From the IMG/VR virus record IMGVR_UViG_3300036822_000048, positions 1 through 41,352 of that record: a stretch of DNA of 41,352 nt, one strand, 5' to 3'. A model generated the notes under the pieces. That model saw nothing but the letters and a program-made list of their open reading frames with translations, ran no database searches and was not told the origin of the DNA. Source of the DNA: a virus. Shown here in pieces: positions 8,384-41,352 of the stretch; positions within the stretch are counted from its first letter, which is position 1; each line of letters begins with the position of its first letter. The translations under genes were made by a program, and so were the position numbers.

Positions 8384-8737
8384 ATGCTGCCGCAGTGGAC
8401 TGCCGATAACGCCTATATCACGGCGGACGGCAAGCAATTACTTGCTCTTCCTTTGACGGGAATGTGGACGGCAGACGGCGCACTGCCACAGACCTTCTAT
8501 CCACTGCCCATGTTTCAGCTGGTGGGGCTCACTTGGTATCAAGCCACCACCATCTTGCTGGCCAATGATTTGGTTCCAGCACTGCCGATAGATGTAAAAG
8601 TTTTGAATACCACGCCAGGCCTGGTGTGGGCGCAGTTCCCCGCCGCTGGCGTTGTGGTGCCGCCGCTGGAATTAGTAACGCTCACCGTGATTCGCCACGC
8701 GCATCTTCTTTCCTACACTTATGACGGGACAGTCTAA
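8384..8737 (+). CDS. Small tail protein with PASTA-like domain
   Basis: 117 residues, ATG immediately after the fibre stop and its own stop immediately before the gp4-like gene. Residues about 43-103 follow the PASTA pattern: a hydrophobic strand (FQLVGLT), a helix with conserved Ala and Leu (WYQATTILLANDL), then PGLVWAQFPAAGVVVPP and a final strand VTLTVI. PASTA domains bind peptidoglycan or beta-lactam-like stem peptides in Ser/Thr kinases and PBPs. In a virion protein this could anchor to cell-wall muropeptides or be a structural beta-alpha fold. No transmembrane or signal segment. Confidence 0.65.
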   Translation: MLPQWTADNAYITADGKQLLALPLTGMWTADGALPQTFYPLPMFQLVGLTWYQATTILLANDLVPALPIDVKVLNTTPGLVWAQFPAAGVVVPPLELVTLTVIRHAHLLSYTYDGTV

Positions 8738-9712
8738 ATGGCTACAGCGCTAGACATCATTCAAGGCGCGCTACTTAATCTCAACTCCTATTCCCCCGGC
8801 GAAGCTGTGAACGCAGCTGATGCGCAAGTGGGCCTGAACTCCCTCAATGACCTAACTGAAAGTCTCGCGAACGATGAGACGTTTATCTACACGCAAATTG
8901 AAACGATTTTCCCGTGGGTGGCTGGGCAGTTTCAATACACGGTAGGGCAGCCAATAGCTGGCACCTTCTTGGGCACGGTCACCGGTGGTAGCAATGTCAT
9001 CACCGGCATTGCGCCCATGCCGACAGACATTGTATTCGGCAGCATTCTCACTGACACCGGTGGCGTGCTGACTTCCGGCACTGCACTGGTTCCCGTGCCT
9101 ATCACGGTGGTTTCCGTGGGTGTCAGTTCACTCACGCTGTCCGCGCCAGCGGCTGTTACCCCTGCCATCAATCCTGACGCAATCAACTACACCGTGCCTG
9201 GCAACATTCCCATGGCGCGCCCCTTGCGTTTCAGGGATGGCTTTACGCGCGCGACTACATCGGGCAATTCAAATTTAGATTACGCGTTTGAGATGGTTTC
9301 CTTTGATCGATACAAAGAGGAACTATTAAAAAATGTCCAAGGCCCGTGGCCGTACATAGCGAGCTATCAGCCCACGTTTCCCTTTGGGACGTTGTATGTC
9401 TACCCGGCACCATCAGCCGCGTACACGGGCCATATTTTCTCAGACCTAATTATCACCAAGTGGTTTCTGACCACGGACACGTATTCCCTGCCGCAAGGCT
9501 ATTCCCGTGCGCTGAAAAAATTGCTGGCGCTTGAGCTTGCGCCGATCTACGGCAAGACGCCTAGCCCACAGCTGATTACACAAGCGAAGGATGCGCGGGA
9601 TTTGCTCAAGGGCACGAACGCCACGCCAGTGGTCACGCTGCGCTTTGATTCAGCGATAGCGCGCGCGCAGACCAATGACGCGGGCTGGATCATTCGGGGC
9701 GGCTTTGTATAA
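8738..9712 (+). CDS. Head-to-tail adaptor, P22 gp4-like
   Basis: 324 residues. The N-terminal 65 residues (DIIQGALLNLNSYSPGE, AADAQVGLNSLNDLTESLAND) match the helical start of P22 gp4-type tail accessory factors, followed by a segment with a YTVG phrase and a Val/Thr-rich beta insertion about residues 75-150. P22 gp4 itself is only 166 residues, so this is an enlarged version of the family. It would bind under the portal and close the DNA channel, with the gp10-like protein of the next gene attaching to it. Its end overlaps the longest form of the next gene by 38 bases. Confidence 0.78.
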   Translation: MATALDIIQGALLNLNSYSPGEAVNAADAQVGLNSLNDLTESLANDETFIYTQIETIFPWVAGQFQYTVGQPIAGTFLGTVTGGSNVITGIAPMPTDIVFGSILTDTGGVLTSGTALVPVPITVVSVGVSSLTLSAPAAVTPAINPDAINYTVPGNIPMARPLRFRDGFTRATTSGNSNLDYAFEMVSFDRYKEELLKNVQGPWPYIASYQPTFPFGTLYVYPAPSAAYTGHIFSDLIITKWFLTTDTYSLPQGYSRALKKLLALELAPIYGKTPSPQLITQAKDARDLLKGTNATPVVTLRFDSAIARAQTNDAGWIIRGGFV

Positions 9713-11432
9713 CGGCTCAGATTTTGGCTTTGTAGGTGGGTCTTACGAAGCGCCAATGACGTTGCAGGATGCTCAGCGGCTGATTAATTGGTATGTGGAA
9801 ATGGACCCCATGCCGACAGCCAAAGAACAGCTGGCCTTGCTCGGCTGCCCTGGCTTGAATCAAGTAGCGGGGACAGCTGCAAACACTCAAGTACGCGGCA
9901 TGTGGGTGCTGCCAGGCTCGCAGCAAGCTTTGGTGGTCGCGGGCAATACTTGCTACGTGATGAAAATCACCGTACCTGCGACACAGACATCTATTGCGCA
10001 ATTCTCGATTACAGCAGTCGGCACCTTGCTAACCAACTCTGGCCCGGTGATTATTCGTGATAATGGCGTATTGACCAACGGCCTAGGCGGCTATGCCGTC
10101 ATGGTTGATGGCATTTATGCCTATTACTATTTGTTGTCTGGCGTGCCACAGAATGTAGTTTTCTTGGCGAATCTCACAGCGGCCAGTGTCAACGCGGCAT
10201 TCCCTGGCTCACTGCCACCAGGCCTGATAATTACACCGAATGCCACGCTGACATCGGGCACGGGCTCGCTGCCCGCGAATGAACATTTATTGTCTGTCGA
10301 TACGGTCGCGCTGACTTTTGTGATGAGCTTGAACGCGATTGCGGGCCCTTCCAATGACACGCTGACCTTGCATGTTCCCGTGTTTGGCCAAATCACGGAC
10401 CCTGGATTTTTAGGGTCTGATCGCATTGCTTTCATTGAAGGATGGTTGATATTCAATGACCCTGGTACGCGCACCTTCTACACCACGGGACCAACACCAT
10501 ATCAGCTGCTTTTCCCTGGTGCCTTTTTCGCGCTCAAAGATTCCAGCACCGATAATCTAATCACGCTGTATGAAAACAATCGTGAGCTTTGGTTAGTCGG
10601 CGAACGCACATCGGAAGTATGGTTCAACGCGGGCGGCACTAACTTTCCCTTTCAGCGCATCCCTGGCGTGGGTCCACAAGTGGGCTGCGCCGCTGTGCAT
10701 TCAATCACGCGCGCTGGCGCGACATTGGTCTGGCTGGGCCGCAATGAGCAAGGCCAGAACATTGTCATCATGCAAGATCAGTACAGTTTCAAGCGCATCT
10801 CAACGCATGCCGTGGAGCATGCAATAGCAAGTTACCCCGTGGTGAATGACGCCATTGGCTATGGCTACGAAGAGGACGGGCATTTATTTTATATGCTCAT
10901 CTTCCCTACAGCCGATGTTACTTGGTGCTTTGACTTGACCGCTGGCGTTTGGCATCAGCGCGCTTCGTTCACCCCCACTACTGGGCAATTTCACCGGCAT
11001 CGTTCCAATTGCTTCATGGACTTCGCTGACCTTCGGCTAGTCGGCGACTATCAAACGGGCCAAGTGTTGCAGATGTCGCGGCAGTATTTCACGGATGCTG
11101 GGCAGCCCTTAGTATGTGTGCGCCGAACGCCGCACGTGTGGAGCAAGGCCACGCGGGAGCGCGTGTTCATTGCTCAGCTGCAAATTGAATTTACCCCTGG
11201 CGTGGGTCTGCAAACGGGCCAAGGGCAAGACCCTCAAGTCATGTTGCGATGGTCTGACGATGGTGGCTTTACGTGGTCTAGCGAGCATTGGTCAAGCATT
11301 GGCGCAGCTGGCGCAACCAAGCACCGGGCCATCTTTCGCTTGCTCGGGCGCGCGCGTGATCGCGTTTGGGAAGCCTCATTCTCTGATCCAGTTCAGCGCG
11401 ACATCATCGGCGCAACCATGTACGCGGAATAA
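9675..11432 (+). CDS. Tail hub / packaged-DNA stabilisation protein, P22 gp10-like
   Basis: 585 residues from ATG 9675, or 575 from the TTG at 9705; neither start has a clear ribosome-binding site. The N-terminus (SYEAPMTLQDAQRLINWYVE) matches the (V/I)N(W/L) start of the gp10 family. Beta-propeller-like repeats follow, with characteristic phrases DRIAFIEGWLIFNDPG, TSEVWFNAG and FQRIPGVGPQVGCAAV. The C-terminus (VQRDIIGATMY) also fits. In P22, gp10 hexamers plug the portal after gp4 and carry the needle. The P22 protein has 472 residues, so this one is somewhat larger. Confidence 0.82.
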   Translation: MTRAGSFGAALYNGSDFGFVGGSYEAPMTLQDAQRLINWYVEMDPMPTAKEQLALLGCPGLNQVAGTAANTQVRGMWVLPGSQQALVVAGNTCYVMKITVPATQTSIAQFSITAVGTLLTNSGPVIIRDNGVLTNGLGGYAVMVDGIYAYYYLLSGVPQNVVFLANLTAASVNAAFPGSLPPGLIITPNATLTSGTGSLPANEHLLSVDTVALTFVMSLNAIAGPSNDTLTLHVPVFGQITDPGFLGSDRIAFIEGWLIFNDPGTRTFYTTGPTPYQLLFPGAFFALKDSSTDNLITLYENNRELWLVGERTSEVWFNAGGTNFPFQRIPGVGPQVGCAAVHSITRAGATLVWLGRNEQGQNIVIMQDQYSFKRISTHAVEHAIASYPVVNDAIGYGYEEDGHLFYMLIFPTADVTWCFDLTAGVWHQRASFTPTTGQFHRHRSNCFMDFADLRLVGDYQTGQVLQMSRQYFTDAGQPLVCVRRTPHVWSKATRERVFIAQLQIEFTPGVGLQTGQGQDPQVMLRWSDDGGFTWSSEHWSSIGAAGATKHRAIFRLLGRARDRVWEASFSDPVQRDIIGATMYAE

Positions 11433-11434
11433 CT

Positions 11435-11770
11435 ATGGCGCAATTTCGTATCGTTCCCACTTACACGCAAGCATGGACACCAGGCAATAAGAACGATTCA
11501 ACTTGGTACCGATATTTCCAAGCGAATGAGACGGGAGAGCCACCGGCGAATGAATCACCGGTGACCGTGCTGCCGTCTCCTTTTGTGTTCACGGCTCCGC
11601 GCAAGGGCATGGTGATGCTGTCAGGGGGCACCGTGAGCCTGGTGCAATTGAACCGGTCTGGCACCAACATCAACACCGGGCAAACCAGCGGCACCATCGT
11701 GGTGGCGCAAGGTGATGTCATCCGAGTGACTTACACCGTCAAGCCCGTGATGACCTTCGTCCCACTGTGA
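11435..11770 (+). CDS. Small virion-module protein of unknown role
   Basis: 111 residues starting two bases after the gp10-like stop. Sequence begins MAQFRIVPTYTQAWTPGN and has alternating hydrophobic and Thr/Ser residues in the second half (MVMLSGGTVSLVQL), suggesting a beta-sandwich. No cysteine and no catalytic motif. The stop (TGA 11768-11770) overlaps the GTG start of the SET-domain gene. Position next to the tail hub suggests a tail component or needle-base protein; family not recognised. Confidence 0.68.
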   Translation: MAQFRIVPTYTQAWTPGNKNDSTWYRYFQANETGEPPANESPVTVLPSPFVFTAPRKGMVMLSGGTVSLVQLNRSGTNINTGQTSGTIVVAQGDVIRVTYTVKPVMTFVPL

Positions 11771-12150
11771 ATGTTCAAGAGCGCGTTGCCTATCACAAGA
11801 TGATTGAGGCTGAAGGCTGGACGCAACTTGAGAAAGAATTGCGCCCGCTGTTTGAGTCTCTTGACGATGTCATGCCATGCAACGGCCATTTCCTCATCAC
11901 TTTTTCTGACATCGATGGCTTGGGGGTGTTTGTCACCCAAGACTTCCGGCCCGGTGACGTGATTGCACCGGCGCGCATTGGCGCTGAGCGCTCGGCAGCT
12001 GGCCGCTATGCCAATCACTCAATGAATCCAAACGCCACGGTGGTGCGCGACGGTGACACGTTGAACTTCATCGCATCGCGCGACATCACCGAAGGAACCG
12101 AGATGACAGTGGACTATAGGCAAGTGCTGGCTGTCAGCCGTAACTCATGA
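11767..12150 (+). CDS. Small SET-domain protein, putative protein-lysine methyltransferase
   Basis: 127 residues. The SET core signatures are in order: GLGVF (51-55, the start strand), then the pseudoknot motif RYANHSMNPN (80-89, equivalent to RFxNHSCxPN), then the ELxxDY equivalent EMTVDY (112-117) with the catalytic-type Tyr117. The usual Cys after NHS is Met, and no post-SET zinc cysteines exist, as in the 119-residue chlorovirus vSET. Substrate would be S-adenosylmethionine plus a lysine side chain; the target is unknown, but could be a virion or host protein. GTG start overlaps the previous stop, and its own stop overlaps the cupin start (ATGA), so it is co-produced with tail proteins. 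A second possible ATG lies 11 codons in. Confidence 0.82.
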   Translation: MNVQERVAYHKMIEAEGWTQLEKELRPLFESLDDVMPCNGHFLITFSDIDGLGVFVTQDFRPGDVIAPARIGAERSAAGRYANHSMNPNATVVRDGDTLNFIASRDITEGTEMTVDYRQVLAVSRNS

Positions 12151-12599
12151 GCCAGCTAGAGCTATGGGATGCATTACCAGAATTAGCTTGGAAGGAAAAA
12201 ATTGCTTACCTCACTGTGCAGTTTTTGAAACAGCCTCAAGTGGAATGCCCTGTAACGCATCGCTTTGAACAAGGCATTTACATACGGGAGATGTTTATAC
12301 CTGCCGACACGCTTTTTTTGGGTCGCGCGCACATCTACGGGCATGAGTGCCAGCTAGTGAAGGGCCAGGTGATTCACATTACGCCAGATGACAAACGAAC
12401 GATTGAAGCCCCGTTCACCGTTCACACGACGCCTGGCTATCACATGGTTTTCTACACGGTCAGCGATGTACTGGGCCGCACCTTGCACCCCAATCCAGAT
12501 GAGATACGTGACATTGATTGGCTGGAAAACGACATTTTTGAATCAATCGGCGAACTCATTCACTTAGGCGAAGCAGTTGAAACGAGGTTATTGCTATGA
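12147..12599 (+). CDS. Cupin-fold protein of the tail module
   Basis: 150 residues. Residues about 34-115 follow the cupin pattern: HRFEQGIYIREMFIPADT, then a strand pair with H-x-YGHE, then QLVKGQVIHIT and a second motif TVHTTPGYHMVFYTV before LHPNPDE. His residues in both motifs could bind a metal. Small cupins of this type recur near tail and ejection genes of phages, but their job is not established. The start overlaps the SET gene stop by ATGA and the end overlaps the next start by ATGA. An enzymatic (dioxygenase-like) or structural role remains open. Confidence 0.7.
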   Translation: MSQLELWDALPELAWKEKIAYLTVQFLKQPQVECPVTHRFEQGIYIREMFIPADTLFLGRAHIYGHECQLVKGQVIHITPDDKRTIEAPFTVHTTPGYHMVFYTVSDVLGRTLHPNPDEIRDIDWLENDIFESIGELIHLGEAVETRLLL

Positions 12600-13396
12600 G
12601 TGGCGTAGCTACTGCCATCGGTGGTGCTGCTGTCATTGGTGCTGGCGCGGCTGTCTATTCAGCTAACAAGCAGTCTAGTGCTGCCAAGAATGCGCAGAAC
12701 ATTGCGCAACAACAGCAGCAGCAAAACATTTCACTTGAACAGCCCTACAACCAAGCGGGCCAGGGCGCGCTCAAGCAGCTGCAATACCTCGAAGGCTTAG
12801 GGCCACAGCAAGGCGCGACGGCAGGCACTTTGCCTGATGGAGTGAGCGCGGGGAATGGTGGCTTTGGTTCCCTGAATGCGCCGTTCACGGCTGACACGTT
12901 TCAGAAGTATTCCCCGGCGTATCAGTTTGTACGCCAGCAAGGTGACCAAGGCGTCATCAACCAAGACGCAGGGGCGCAAGGCGCGCTGTCAGGTTCCGCC
13001 ATGAAAGATTTGCTTTCTTTCAATTCGGGCCTGGCGAATGAATCGTTTAATAATGCCTTTGGCCAATATCAGACGCAGCAAATGAACACATTCAACCGGC
13101 TGAACTCTATCGCTGGGCTTGGCCAAGCGGCGGCCAGTGGCCAGGCTGCTGTCAATACGAATCTGGCGGGCACAGCTGGCCAGGCAGCGCAAAACATCGG
13201 CACGGCTCAGGCGGGCGGCATAGTGGGCGCGGCCAATTCCTTGGGCAGTGGTGCCACCAATGCAGCGCTCTGGGCGCAGTATGGGGGTGGTGGCTTTGTG
13301 CCGATGAATTCCCCGGCACTCTCAGGCGGCACAGCTGGGTGGGGTGCTGGCGCTGAAGGCGTGCCCCTCAATCTACCACCGGCACCGGTACCCTAA
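12596..13396 (+). CDS. DNA ejection protein (internal virion protein) 1
   Basis: 266 residues. N-terminus has a Gly/Ala hydrophobic segment (about 4-24, possible membrane insertion), then a polyglutamine run (QQQQQQ, 39-44), then a YQFVRQQGDQGVINQDAGAQ segment followed by GALSGSAMKDLLSFNSGLANE, a pattern I associate with ejection-type proteins of podoviruses. The C-terminal third is Ala/Gly/Gln helix. It is the first of three consecutive large Ala/Gln-rich genes after the tail hub, matching the P22 gp7-gp20-gp16 arrangement. It is expected to leave the virion and form a channel across the envelope. Start overlaps the previous stop by ATGA. Confidence 0.75.
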   Translation: MSGVATAIGGAAVIGAGAAVYSANKQSSAAKNAQNIAQQQQQQNISLEQPYNQAGQGALKQLQYLEGLGPQQGATAGTLPDGVSAGNGGFGSLNAPFTADTFQKYSPAYQFVRQQGDQGVINQDAGAQGALSGSAMKDLLSFNSGLANESFNNAFGQYQTQQMNTFNRLNSIAGLGQAAASGQAAVNTNLAGTAGQAAQNIGTAQAGGIVGAANSLGSGATNAALWAQYGGGGFVPMNSPALSGGTAGWGAGAEGVPLNLPPAPVP

Positions 13397-17348: not shown

Positions 17349-18389
17349 ATGCCTGCCGCCTTCCTAGCTCCAAATGCCCAATTTCGTAGCTGGGACAATA
17401 GCGGCGCGCCCCTGGTGGGCGGCAAGCTATTTACCTATAGCGCAGGCACCAGCACCCCGGTGGCCACCTACACAGATTCGACGGGGGGCACCCCGAACAC
17501 AAACCCGATCATCTTGAATTCTCGGGGAGAGGCGCAAGTCTGGCTCACGCCAAACGTGGGCTACAAGTTTGTGCTGCAAGATCGATTTGGTAACCCGATA
17601 TGGACGGTGGATCAGCTTTTCAATTCTCAGCTGCTTACCCTCTTCGGTGGCACTGATACGGGCTTTGCAAATAGCTACGTGTTGAATTTTGTTTCTAACT
17701 TCACCAGCCTGGTGAATGGCATCGTAGTTTATTGGATACCGGCGAATACCAACACCGGGCCCAGCACTCTCAACGTGAATGGCCTTGGCCCTATTCCGAT
17801 ATTGAATCAAGGCGGCGCGCCGCTGACGGCTGGCCAGCTGTTTGCCAATCAAGTGGCCAATGTCATGTACTTCAATGGCAATTGGTTGCTCATCTCTTCA
17901 GGCTATTCATCGGCAGCGGCGCAGAGTTTATTTATTGCCAATCGATCGATTGGCGCAGGCAATCAAACATTTCCACCCAATGCCATTACCATCGCGTTGT
18001 TTGATGCCGTCACGGCAAATCAAAACAGTGTCTACAACACCGGCACTGGGCTCTTCACTGCGCCCACCACGGGCATTTATCAGTTCACGTGCATTGTCGC
18101 TATGGAAAGCCCTGCAAGTTCATTCCTTGCGCCCAGCATCTTTTTTAGTAAGAACGGGCTTTTCAGTGTTGGGCAATTTTGGCCGACGGTCGGCCAATTC
18201 TTAGGCGCGCCAGCCGGTGGGGCCGCTGTGCCAGCCAACACCAGTGGAGCATTCGGAGCCACAGCGCAATTTGTCATGAACGCTGGGGACACCATGCAAA
18301 TCTCAGTTCAGACGGCAAACCCCGGTGGTGGCTTCTTTATGTTTGGCGACGGCAAATCAAGCCAGTTCTCTGGCTACCGGGTGGGCTGA
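17349..18389 (+). CDS. Tail fibre with C1q-like C-terminal domain
   Basis: 346 residues. The N-terminal 90 residues (FRSWDNSGAPLVGGKLFTY, AGTSTPVATYTDSTGG, NPIILNSRGEAQVWL, FVLQDRFGNPIWTVDQL) are a widespread phage fibre/tailspike head-binding module. The last 150 residues show the C1q/TNF-like pattern (VYNTGTGLFTAPTTGIYQF, then beta strands ending SGYRVG), which makes compact trimeric receptor-binding tips. It begins the second receptor-binding cluster, after the ejection genes. ATG 17349 has no clear ribosome-binding site. The next gene repeats the N-terminal module. Confidence 0.82.
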   Translation: MPAAFLAPNAQFRSWDNSGAPLVGGKLFTYSAGTSTPVATYTDSTGGTPNTNPIILNSRGEAQVWLTPNVGYKFVLQDRFGNPIWTVDQLFNSQLLTLFGGTDTGFANSYVLNFVSNFTSLVNGIVVYWIPANTNTGPSTLNVNGLGPIPILNQGGAPLTAGQLFANQVANVMYFNGNWLLISSGYSSAAAQSLFIANRSIGAGNQTFPPNAITIALFDAVTANQNSVYNTGTGLFTAPTTGIYQFTCIVAMESPASSFLAPSIFFSKNGLFSVGQFWPTVGQFLGAPAGGAAVPANTSGAFGATAQFVMNAGDTMQISVQTANPGGGFFMFGDGKSSQFSGYRVG

Positions 18390-18390
18390 C

Positions 18391-19023
18391 GTGACCACTG
18401 TCCTATCGCCGTCCCCCGTCTTCCGTGGCTTCAATAACCAGGGCCTACCCTTGGTCGGGGGCTTGCTCTTCACCTATGTAGCGGGCACCACTACGCCACA
18501 AGCTACGTGGGTGGATTCGACGCAGACCACACAAAACACAAACCCCGTGGTGCTGAACTCGCGCGGCGAAGCAAACGTGTGGCTTGATCCACGGCTCACT
18601 TATAAATTCGTGCTGCAAGACTCGGCAGCTAGTCCCATTTGGACGGTGGATCAAATACCGGGCAACGGGACTGGCGGCAGTCAGGGCAGTTTCGCGGCGA
18701 CCACGACAGGCTTTACTGTGGTACTCACGCCTACCATTCAGTGGGTATTGCAGGGGCCCATAGTCACGCTGGTGCTGCCCTTGATAACAGGCACGAGCAA
18801 TGCCGCAATTTTCAATATTGCGGGCTTGCCCGCCTTCCTACAGCCATTGCACACGCAAATTTGCTCAGTCGCCACCATTCAAAATAATGGCGTGAATACG
18901 GCCGGTGGCTATGCTGCGATGATACCGGGAAATTCATCGATTGGAATTTCCTTTCCGGCTGTAAACTGGACGGCCAGCGGCACCAAGTCATGCCAGGGAA
19001 CAGTTACCTATTCCCTGACTTAG
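18391..19023 (+). CDS. Short tail fibre paralogue
   Basis: 210 residues from GTG 18391, one base after the preceding stop; the longer frame from 18325 would run inside the previous gene. The first 85 residues are clearly paralogous to the start of the upstream fibre ([43 protein letters not shown]), but the C-terminal 110 residues are different and have no C1q features. It ends with TAG at 19021-19023 and overlaps the csrA stop end-to-end by 20 bases. Likely a second, alternative or accessory receptor-binding fibre using the same attachment site. Confidence 0.78.
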
Positions 19024-20368: not shown

Positions 20369-20759
20369 TGCTCCTTTTTAAGTGGCCGTTGGTATATCTA
20401 CCTTAGCGCAGCGCACCAGCATTAGGCTACAAAAACGTCAAGAAAACTTGCGCCGCCATCCCTCCATTAATCGTAACTTGGGCGCATCTCAGTTAGGCCA
20501 AACTAAGCCCGATTTGAGATAAAAAGCTCCAAAACTGTTACCACCCCCCTGTAAGTTGATGATTCACAAGGCTCAATTTTCGTGTTGCGTCCACGGCCAG
20601 GCTCCCTTACTCTATATTCCTCGGGAAATACTTAAATCTGGTTACTTTTTAATCATCTGAATTACGCTGGATTTATAGAGGTTTCGCCGAATTGGTATTT
20701 TAAAAATGTACCAAATCTGTACCATCAAATTGCACCAAACAGAGAAAGGAATATTAGTC
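20369..20759. promoter_or_regulatory. Intergenic region between the csrA cassette and integrase, candidate attP/arm sites
   Basis: 391 bases without a supported gene. It holds TTGGTA at 20389-20394 and 20692-20697, and the near-repeats TGTACCA (20707-20713), TGTACCA (20718-20724) and TGCACCA (20731-20737) just before the integrase start; the first pairs with TTGGTA as an inverted repeat. A separate imperfect hairpin has ATCTCA at 20486-20491 and TGAGAT at 20515-20520. A TTGACG hexamer lies on the minus strand near 20436-20441, without a good -10. Integrase arm or core sites commonly lie here, but I cannot name the core from one sequence. Confidence 0.5.
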
Positions 20760-21815
20760 ATGGCAACGTTTGTAAAGAGAGGTAACAAGGTGCGCGCAGT
20801 AGTGCGCAAGGTCGGCATGCCTGCCGCCACCAAATCATTTGATTCGATGCGCGACGCCAAGGCATGGGCGGCAGCTGAAGAGACCAAGCTGACCACGCGC
20901 GTGGTCGATGCTGGCGGGCTCACCTTGGGCCAAATCATGGGCAAGTATTTGGAGCGCTACAAGGAAACGCGTCCCTACACGGTCCAGTGTACTGAGTGCC
21001 TGTATCGGCGCTTCATGCGTGACTTTGCTCACGTCGATATTGCCGACATGAATACGCAATGGTGGCTCGATACCGTCGAAGGGTGGAGCCATGGCCACAC
21101 GGGCAACAAAATCAACCGGGCCACGGCGCGGCGCTATCTGACCTACATCACCACGGCGCTGAAGACTTCAAAGCGGCGCTGGAATGTAACGGTCAATTGG
21201 GATGCGTACCATGAGGCGCTTGAACAGCTGAAGGATGACAAGACCGTGGGTAGCGGTCGCAGCCGTACCCGTCGATTGCAGCCCGGTGAATTGGAGAAAA
21301 TGCAGGCCTTCGCCAACACCATGGAGACACACGTCCCCTTCGCAGACATCATGGACTTTGCCATTGCTTCAACCTTGCGCATTGGTGAAATTCTGCGCTT
21401 GGAATGGCGTCACGTGAATGACTTGACACGCACAGTTATTATCAAAGATCGGAAAGACCCACAGAACAAGGAAGGCAATAACCAAGAGATACCGTTGCTA
21501 AACGGCGCTTACGACATCATCCAGCGGCAGAAGACCAAGGGCAATAACAGCAAAATATTTCCCTATAAGCGTAATTATGTTTGCCAGCGCTTCGGCTTCA
21601 TCTGCAAGGAAGTGGGCATAGAAGATTTTCACTTCCATGATTTTCGCCATGAGGGCATCTCGCGGCTGTTTGAAGAGGGCTACCAGATTGATGAAGTAGC
21701 CTTAGTCTCAGGCCATAAGAAGTGGGACATGTTGCGCAAGTACACCCACCGTAAGGCTGCCGATCTTCACCGTGGACCTTCGGCGCAGCAGCGCAAAGGC
21801 GTCAAGGCCGCTTAA
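20760..21815 (+). CDS. int: Tyrosine recombinase integrase
   Basis: 351 residues from ATG 20760 with AAAGGA nine bases upstream; the frame to 20706 is longer but unsupported. Arm/core-binding N-terminal part to about residue 165, then the catalytic domain with Arg207 (STLRIGE), His293-x-x-Arg296 (HDFRHEGIS), His319 (SGHKKW) and nucleophile Tyr328 (LRKYTH), the complete R-H-R-H-Y set; a Lys in the 229-237 hairpin completes it. It catalyses site-specific integration and, with an excisionase, excision. It is the only plus-strand gene between two minus-strand blocks, with a hairpin terminator just downstream at 21825-21848. Confidence 0.95.
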   Translation: MATFVKRGNKVRAVVRKVGMPAATKSFDSMRDAKAWAAAEETKLTTRVVDAGGLTLGQIMGKYLERYKETRPYTVQCTECLYRRFMRDFAHVDIADMNTQWWLDTVEGWSHGHTGNKINRATARRYLTYITTALKTSKRRWNVTVNWDAYHEALEQLKDDKTVGSGRSRTRRLQPGELEKMQAFANTMETHVPFADIMDFAIASTLRIGEILRLEWRHVNDLTRTVIIKDRKDPQNKEGNNQEIPLLNGAYDIIQRQKTKGNNSKIFPYKRNYVCQRFGFICKEVGIEDFHFHDFRHEGISRLFEEGYQIDEVALVSGHKKWDMLRKYTHRKAADLHRGPSAQQRKGVKAA

Positions 21816-39626: not shown

Positions 39627-41352
39627 TGTCGGCAGTACCGCGCGACGTTCTAAAACCAGCAATCACCGATGAGGAAATAGTCAAAGAATGTATCGAGCGT
39701 TACCGAATAGCCGAAGAGGCTGAATCAGACAATCGCGCGCGCGGAGTGCAGGCCCTCGAATTCCGTGACGGCAAGCAGTGGCCCGATGACCTTTATAACC
39801 AACGCAGAATCGACAGGCGCCCTAGCCTCACGATTAACCATACAAATACCTTTGTGCGGCGCGTGGTTAATAACATGCGCCAGCAAAGGCCGCGCATCAA
39901 AGTGCATCCCGTTGGCGACGGGGCCGACGTTGCCAAAGCAGATGTCATATCGGGGCTCATTCGCCACGTTGAGAACATGTCATCGGCATCGATTGCGTAT
40001 GACACGGGTGGCGAATCAGCTGTCTCGATAGGCTGGGGCTACTGGCGCGTACTGTCTGACTACATTGACCAAGACAGCTTTGACCAAGAGTTGAAGATAG
40101 ACGCGATTCGTAATCCGTTCACGGTCTACATGGACCCCTCATCCACAATCCCCACCGGCGAAGATGCTGAATGGGTGATTATCACCCAGAAGATGAAGCG
40201 CGCCGATTACGCGCGCGAATATCCCGATGCTGACAATGTCGAATTTCAGCGCACTGGCATGGGGGACAATGTTTCATCTTGGGAAACGAAAGACGAAATA
40301 CGCTTAGCTGAATACTATCGCTTAAAAAAGACCAGTGACACGCTATACCGAATGACCAATGGTATGGCGCTGTTTGCCGATCAGATCAAAAAACTAGAAA
40401 CGGAATTGTCGGCGGCGAAGGTCACCTATCTCATGGTGAACGGTAAGCGTTTCTCGCGCCCCTCTACGCGCGTGATGGTTGAATGGTATCGCTTGAACGG
40501 CAATCAGATTGTAGATCGGCGCGCCGAAGGTGCTGACCCACTGCCCGATAAGTGGATACCGGTGATTCGCTGTGAGGGCAATGTCCTAGATTTGAATGGG
40601 CGCGTGCGACGCAAGGGCATGGTGGAAGACCTCATGGACCCGGCGCGCATGTACAACTACTGGCGCACCATGGAAACAGAGCTTTTGGCCTTGGCCCCCA
40701 AAGCTCCGTTCATCGCAGCCGCTGGCCAGCTGGACGGCCACCCTGAGTGGAAGGATGCAAACCAGAAGCCCTATTCGGCGCTGGTGTATGAGCCTGCATT
40801 CATTGAACAGCCGGACGGCAGCCGCACATTGTTGCCGCCCCCTCAGCGTATGCAGCCAATCCCCGTGCCCGCTGGGGCCGTGCAAGCCGCGCAAGGCGCG
40901 CAGCAAGATTTGATGGCCGTGGCTGGGATGCCTCATGAGCCATCGGCCGATGTGCCAGGCGCTGCCATCTCAGGCGTTGCGCTGCGCCAGCGGCAAGCGC
41001 TGTCTGACATCGGACACTTTCAGTATTACGACAATCAGACCCGCGCCATTGCGCACACGGGCCGCATTCTCTTGCAGCTGATCCCGTTTTACTACTCCAC
41101 TCAGCGCATGCAGAGAATCATTGGTGAGGATGGCACGCCTTCCTTGCAGCCCTTAAATACACCACAGCCAAGCCCGATGAATCCGGCAATCATTCAGATA
41201 AAGAATGACATGTCTGTGGGCCGCTATGACGTGGTCATGGACACGGGCCCTGGCTATGAGACGAAGCGCCTTGAAGGTGCTGAATCGATGATTGATCTAT
41301 TGAAGACCCCTCTGGCTGAGCCGATTGTCAAAGTGGGTGCCGATGTCATCGT
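39626..41352 (+). CDS. P22-like portal protein, N-terminal part (gene cut by window edge)
   Basis: Starts ATG 39626 (TAATG overlap) and runs open to the end of the window; joined through the repeat to 1-1025 it gives about 720 residues. The N-terminus has EIVKECIERYRIAEEAESDN, FRDGKQWPDDLYNQR and RPSLTINHTNTFVRRVVNN, a full portal-family core start, followed by AIRNPFTVYMDPSS and MVEWYRLNG. The last part (from 40764) repeats bases 1-589. The portal is the first gene of the head module after terminase. Confidence 0.92.
   Translation, partial: MSAVPRDVLKPAITDEEIVKECIERYRIAEEAESDNRARGVQALEFRDGKQWPDDLYNQRRIDRRPSLTINHTNTFVRRVVNNMRQQRPRIKVHPVGDGADVAKADVISGLIRHVENMSSASIAYDTGGESAVSIGWGYWRVLSDYIDQDSFDQELKIDAIRNPFTVYMDPSSTIPTGEDAEWVIITQKMKRADYAREYPDADNVEFQRTGMGDNVSSWETKDEIRLAEYYRLKKTSDTLYRMTNGMALFADQIKKLETELSAAKVTYLMVNGKRFSRPSTRVMVEWYRLNGNQIVDRRAEGADPLPDKWIPVIRCEGNVLDLNGRVRRKGMVEDLMDPARMYNYWRTMETELLALAPKAPFIAAAGQLDGHPEWKDANQKPYSALVYEPAFIEQPDGSRTLLPPPQRMQPIPVPAGAVQAAQGAQQDLMAVAGMPHEPSADVPGAAISGVALRQRQALSDIGHFQYYDNQTRAIAHTGRILLQLIPFYYSTQRMQRIIGEDGTPSLQPLNTPQPSPMNPAIIQIKNDMSVGRYDVVMDTGPGYETKRLEGAESMIDLLKTPLAEPIVKVGADVI
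40764..41352. repeat. Right copy of the 589-bp terminal repeat
   Basis: Same sequence as 1-589 except for seven bases, all at third codon positions of the portal gene and all synonymous (for example GCT/GCG Ala at 128, ATA/ATT Ile at 563). About 1.2 percent difference. It shows that two closely related variants were merged into one assembly. Confidence 0.95.

Follow-up and report, generated by a model that had tools for sequence, protein, structure and literature searches.

The window, by which we mean the whole stretch of 41,352 bases analysed here, is a virus record that carries portal, scaffold, major head and terminase genes together with an integrase gene. Its gene order is P22-like, and the genes from the gp4-like to the ejection gene lie on the plus strand. 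A P22 gp4-like head–tail adaptor (8738–9712; phrog_637, 4.4e-6; phrog_12985, 1.8e-31) and a P22 gp10-like head-closure (Hc3) protein (9675–11432; phrog_578, 1.8e-92) are followed by a 111-aa ORF at the P22 gp26 position (11435–11770), which has a homologue in Rhodoferax phage P26218, and by a gene with a GTG start that encodes a 127-aa SET-domain protein (11767–12150). Next come a 150-aa ORF for a cupin (RmlC-like) partner (12147–12599; phrog_12032/24280), a P22 gp7-like DNA-ejection protein (12596–13396; phrog_598 DNA ejection, 1e-22) and two large ORFs that occupy the gp20 and gp16 positions 3′ of the ejection gene. The SET gene overlaps the ORF upstream by 4 bp (GTGA, 11767–11770) and the ORF downstream by 4 bp (ATGA, 12147–12150), in line with the initial annotation, which had it overlapping tail genes on both sides. 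The cupin ORF and the ejection gene likewise overlap by 4 bp (ATGA), and these overlaps therefore make the 11435–13396 run look like one translationally coupled unit. Because an integrase family match is present (20706–21815; phrog_1, 1e-38), the phage is probably a temperate podovirus with P22-like gene order.

Sequence comparison confirmed the product of 11767–12150 as a genuine SET domain. It matched Pfam SET (PF00856) with 44.5 bits (E = 2.3e-11; curated cut-off 22.4), and the full SET signature that the initial annotation had claimed was found in all three parts: GLGVF (residues 51–55, 11917–11931), which holds the predicted SAM-binding GxG of motif I; RYANHSMNPN (residues 80–89, 12004–12033), motif III; and EMTVDY (residues 112–117, 12100–12117), motif IV, with Tyr117 as the predicted catalytic residue. 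Cys38 is the only cysteine of the protein, so the pre-SET and post-SET zinc cysteines are absent, again as claimed. Alignment of 73 non-redundant relatives, each less than 85% identical to the others, revealed G51 and G53 in 72 of 72 non-gap rows, N83 and H84 in 73 of 73, N89 in 72 of 73, and E112 and Tyr117 in 71 of 71 non-gap rows, at a mean column identity of 45% and an overall identity of about 35–45%. Since the search pattern spanned the R..GR-NH region only, the way in which sequences were selected does not account for the conserved GxG and Tyr117. In a trimmed set of 53 members, every one matched PF00856. From these motifs, SAM binding and lysine methyltransferase activity would be predicted for the protein of the window.

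The initial annotation had also likened the protein in size to the 119-aa vSET (A612L of PBCV-1, PDB 1n3j), a chlorovirus histone H3K27 methyltransferase. This match did not hold at the level of the domain: the SET core covers only residues 40–120 or so (about 80 residues), SET-I is missing, and residues 1 to about 40 correspond to the linker of fused homologues, making the similarity in length coincidental. The likeness lies instead in a viral, stand-alone SET without pre-SET or post-SET zinc cysteines and in a profile match; searched against the PDB, the family profile matched MLL1 at 4e-12 and vSET at 5.9e-8, over vSET residues 4–108. Unlike vSET, the phage protein has a shorter spacing of motifs I and III, is paired with a cupin, to which it is normally fused, and is encoded in a tail/ejection operon. 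GxG and NH are 30 residues apart in 68 of 72 family members, compared with 57–65 in bacterial SET proteins (for example, the Reyranella and Dyella loci L185–L192), which share motifs I, III and IV and in which no cupin was found. The SET-I insert, which is absent from the phage family, is the variable part of the domain and is not required for the Pfam family. In SET enzymes, SET-I and post-SET usually build the substrate channel.

AlphaFold modelling of a fused relative, L009, from 51 sequences (pLDDT 94) yielded a cupin barrel joined by a helical linker to a compact SET domain, in which a helix of only 5 residues takes the place of SET-I. In a Foldseek search of a viral library this model matched SET proteins (for example, with an rmsd of 1.7 over 87 columns), which speaks against a fold unrelated to SET. 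The SET protein of the window, folded alone as a single sequence without alignment, gave a low-confidence model (pLDDT 45).

Comparison with PHROG 34170, a family of unknown function that includes gp30 of Rhodoferax phage P26218, indicates that the SET gene of the window is half of a two-domain protein whose other half is the cupin of 12147–12599. Within its 296 positions, 153–280 align with the SET protein and 23–120 with the ORF that follows. In the window the two domains are separate genes, SET and then cupin, that is, split and in the reverse order to the cupin–SET fusions of most relatives. A single frame with an N-terminal cupin and a C-terminal SET occurs in Rhodoferax phage P26218, Pseudoalteromonas phage PH1, the Manatee Spring phages and zth2-2, and in these, where the flanks are annotated, the fused gene lies directly 5′ of the ejection gene. 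Among the 600 candidate stretches listed from IMG/VR, at least 305 relatives were recognised. Domain mapping of 174 loci, which were gathered by SET or cupin searches and include a few duplicates of one genome, so that their proportions are not estimates of prevalence, revealed 89 cupin–SET fusions, 69 cupins without SET, 11 SET domains without a recognised cupin and 5 split or permuted forms (two SET|cupin, namely the window and L020, two cupin|SET and one reversed fusion). The next recognised gene encodes an ejection protein in 120 of the 174. The synteny of SET genes with tail modules in other phages, proposed as a check in the initial annotation, recurs widely.

The module also occurs in named bacterial genomes, among them a Paraburkholderia MAG, in which the copy is fused and accompanied by an ejection-protein match. 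In an isolate of Paraburkholderia ferrariae (L182, 6210–7657), cupin and SET are split into proteins of 242 and 240 aa with a 4-bp overlap; no recognisable ejection gene was found beside this pair, which is possibly a prophage remnant or a moron. Pelagibacter phage Kolga (L004, 4980–5288) encodes a 102-aa SET protein (phrog_28741) whose gene lies away from the podoviral slot and has no accompanying cupin.

The slot itself is fixed, 3′ of the P22 gp10-like genes and 5′ of the gp7-like ejection gene. Relatives with the cupin only fill the same slot in Vibrio phage VvAW1, Vibrio 234P9, Shewanella X14 and Manatee Spring phage MW202691, and in the Autographiviridae-type Sphaerotilus R1 and Variovorax VAC_51 the cupin is flanked by tail tubular B on one side and the first internal virion protein on the other. 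PHROG 12032 and 24280 (VvAW1, VAC_51 and others), labelled 'short tail fiber protein / tail fiber adhesin', have the same cupin and slot without a SET domain. The equivalent position in P22 (gene order 10-26-14-7-20-16) and T7 (12-13-14-15-16), between the nozzle/needle genes and the first ejection gene, is filled by gp14 and gp13, respectively. These proteins are annotated as head morphogenesis proteins and probable scaffolds. They were considered as homologues and rejected: P22 gp14 (DUF2824) and T7 gp13 (Phage_T7_Gp13) belong to Pfam and PHROG families that differ from those of the cupin and SET, with position alone in common.

The assignment of the partner as a cupin is supported by the L009 fused model, whose top Foldseek matches in the PDB were RmlC-like cupins (E about 1e-6, probability 1.00), the best 50 matches being dominated by the cupin half. 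The Pfam Cupin_2 match was marginal (0.084, in one member only). The putative metal histidines H62, H66 and H114 (12330–12491) are all kept in the cupin of the window; across the family they are largely kept in SET-less cupins and are often Q or Y in SET-linked ones. The label 'short tail fiber / adhesin' of the cupin is a database annotation only, and a literature search for virion proteomics behind it found nothing usable.

Further analysis of the module's evolution compared pairwise protein distances across 21–57 loci. The cupin and SET distances correlated with each other (r 0.73–0.80, Mantel p 0.001), and each correlated with the distances of the ejection, gp10-like and gp4-like proteins at r 0.22–0.42, compared with r 0.73–0.90 at similar mean distances for the latter three among themselves. 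In a weakly resolved cupin tree, the presence of SET needs about nine changes, of which the starred branches force just one, and the window belongs to a supported five-member clade (99*) with both fused and split forms. A candidate exchange was captured in the IMG/VR contigs L193 and L194, which share 6.8 kb of near-identical sequence and part cleanly at the start of the cupin gene, L193 continuing with a cupin alone and L194 with cupin–SET in an unchanged MCP–gp4–gp10 background; L193 ends within the swapped region, so that the far side is missing, and chimeric assembly of these metagenome contigs is possible. These comparisons show that cupin and SET are inherited as one exchangeable cassette, largely uncoupled from the ejection and head–tail proteins. 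In this the module does not look like an enzyme tuned to those proteins, and a host-variable target is therefore favoured.

We next consider what the module might do. The reading that we prefer, with a probability of roughly 0.5, is that the SET protein is an active lysine methyltransferase that acts on a host-variable component and shares an exchangeable tail cassette with the cupin. The product of 11767–12150 would be a minimal, catalytically competent, SAM-dependent protein-lysine methyltransferase domain without SET-I, working jointly with the cupin encoded downstream, the two being a single polypeptide elsewhere. Both would be synthesised late, translationally coupled to the tail and ejection genes, and the cupin may act as the binding half, a substrate or virion adaptor that places the SET active site on its target. 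Instead of one of the conserved ejection or head–tail proteins, the substrate would then be a host protein or a fibre or adhesin partner; its host-variable nature is suggested by the distance correlations in 21–57 loci and by the one swap in metagenome contigs. Against this reading stand the missing SET-I and post-SET, and the related phages that manage without a SET domain.

The same absence of substrate-binding elements, together with fusion to a cupin labelled as a short tail fibre, would suit a purely structural role, in which the SET fold is a beta domain of a tail protein and has no catalytic function. We regard this as very improbable, as it is hard to see, without SAM chemistry, why GxG, NH and the catalytic Tyr should be almost perfectly conserved at an overall identity of about 35–45%. 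If the domain is an enzyme, it might instead act during morphogenesis as a cupin–SET counterpart of P22 gp14 or T7 gp13, methylating gp7-, gp20- or gp16-like or tail proteins. The identical gene position, the head morphogenesis and probable scaffold annotations of gp14 and gp13, the strict adjacency to the ejection gene and the 4-bp overlaps all point this way. However, the module has evolved for the most part separately from the ejection, gp10-like and gp4-like proteins, its allele can be swapped in an unchanged MCP–gp4–gp10 background, and the lysines of the ejection protein are neither invariant nor clearly enriched in SET-carriers, which leaves such an assembly role rather doubtful. In SET-carriers the ejection protein has no invariant lysine, and no lysine column is clearly enriched relative to SET-less phages, the best being 27/59 versus 4/24. 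An ejection protein with a single conserved lysine site was accordingly rejected as the substrate, and loose or multiple sites are possible. Lysine content, in a comparison uncontrolled for composition and relatedness and not used here, does not differ between the ejection proteins of SET-plus and SET-minus phages and is lower in the MCP and gp10 of SET-plus phages. The proposal of the initial annotation that virion proteins are methylated is thus weakened for the ejection, gp10-like and gp4-like proteins, because the module evolves largely independently, can be swapped in an unchanged head–tail background and meets no invariant lysine in the ejection protein; for a fibre or adhesin partner it still stands as a possibility.

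The cupin–SET protein might also methylate a host protein, whether it is packaged and enters the cell together with the ejection proteins or is produced late, in counter-defence, host take-over or superinfection exclusion. Exchange of the cassette independently of the virion backbone, as for host-adaptation genes, and a gene that adjoins those of ejected proteins are in keeping with such an effector, as is the availability of SAM only inside the cell; on the other side is set the 'tail fibre' label of the cupin, which is annotation only. We judge this effector role unlikely as a separate explanation, and it overlaps with the preferred one, so that our confidences in the two are not mutually exclusive. 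More specifically, the tail cassette, widespread among phages, may bring a SET lysine methyltransferase into the cell, or make it there, to modify a host protein, and would then be exchanged as a host-adaptation or counter-defence module, an analogue of the chlorovirus vSET strategy; we hold this to be distinctly unlikely. The bacterial host has no nucleosomes, unlike the setting of vSET, and a histone target in it is implausible. Methylation of Salmonella flagellin by FliB, considered as a parallel in connection with phage Chi, was set aside because the enzyme is different; according to its authors, this methylation is not crucial for phage Chi infection (PMC10399903).

Our search of the open-access literature, a scope that makes it weak evidence, found no study of phage-encoded SET methyltransferases, only passing annotations. 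ORF62 of Stenotrophomonas phage Ps15 is annotated with a SET domain (PMC9025141), and MW202744 carries the annotation 'pbcV-1 histone H3-lys 27 methyltransferase structure'. Mentions of a 'SET domain' in several phage papers turned out to be 'I-set' immunoglobulin domains. Within the open-access literature searched, the cupin–SET architecture, the SET-I-less core, the fixed slot and the exchange of the cassette appear to be new. The SET gene is no stray gene; it is a recurrent, conserved and exchangeable part of a tail/ejection cassette in many environmental podoviruses, and it points to little-studied protein methylation by bacterial viruses. As an arrangement by which a SET enzyme might find its substrate, the SET-I-less core with its cupin is new, and matched SET-plus and SET-minus alleles make the methylation target of such phages testable in cultivable examples such as Rhodoferax phage P26218 and Pseudoalteromonas phage PH1.

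Elsewhere in the window, the two ends (1–589 and 40764–41352) are identical at 582 of 589 positions, and the contig is therefore terminally redundant, with a unit of about 40.76 kb; the few mismatches between the ends suggest strain variation or assembly error. Just 5′ of the gp4-like gene, a 117-aa protein (8384–8737) has a sub-threshold match to a PASTA domain (E = 0.0011), which is unusual in a phage head–tail region. Finally, two overlapping neighbour ORFs (17349–18389 and 18325–19023) both match phrog_26190 in their N-terminal parts, which suggests duplicated N-terminal domains of putative receptor-binding or tail-spike proteins.
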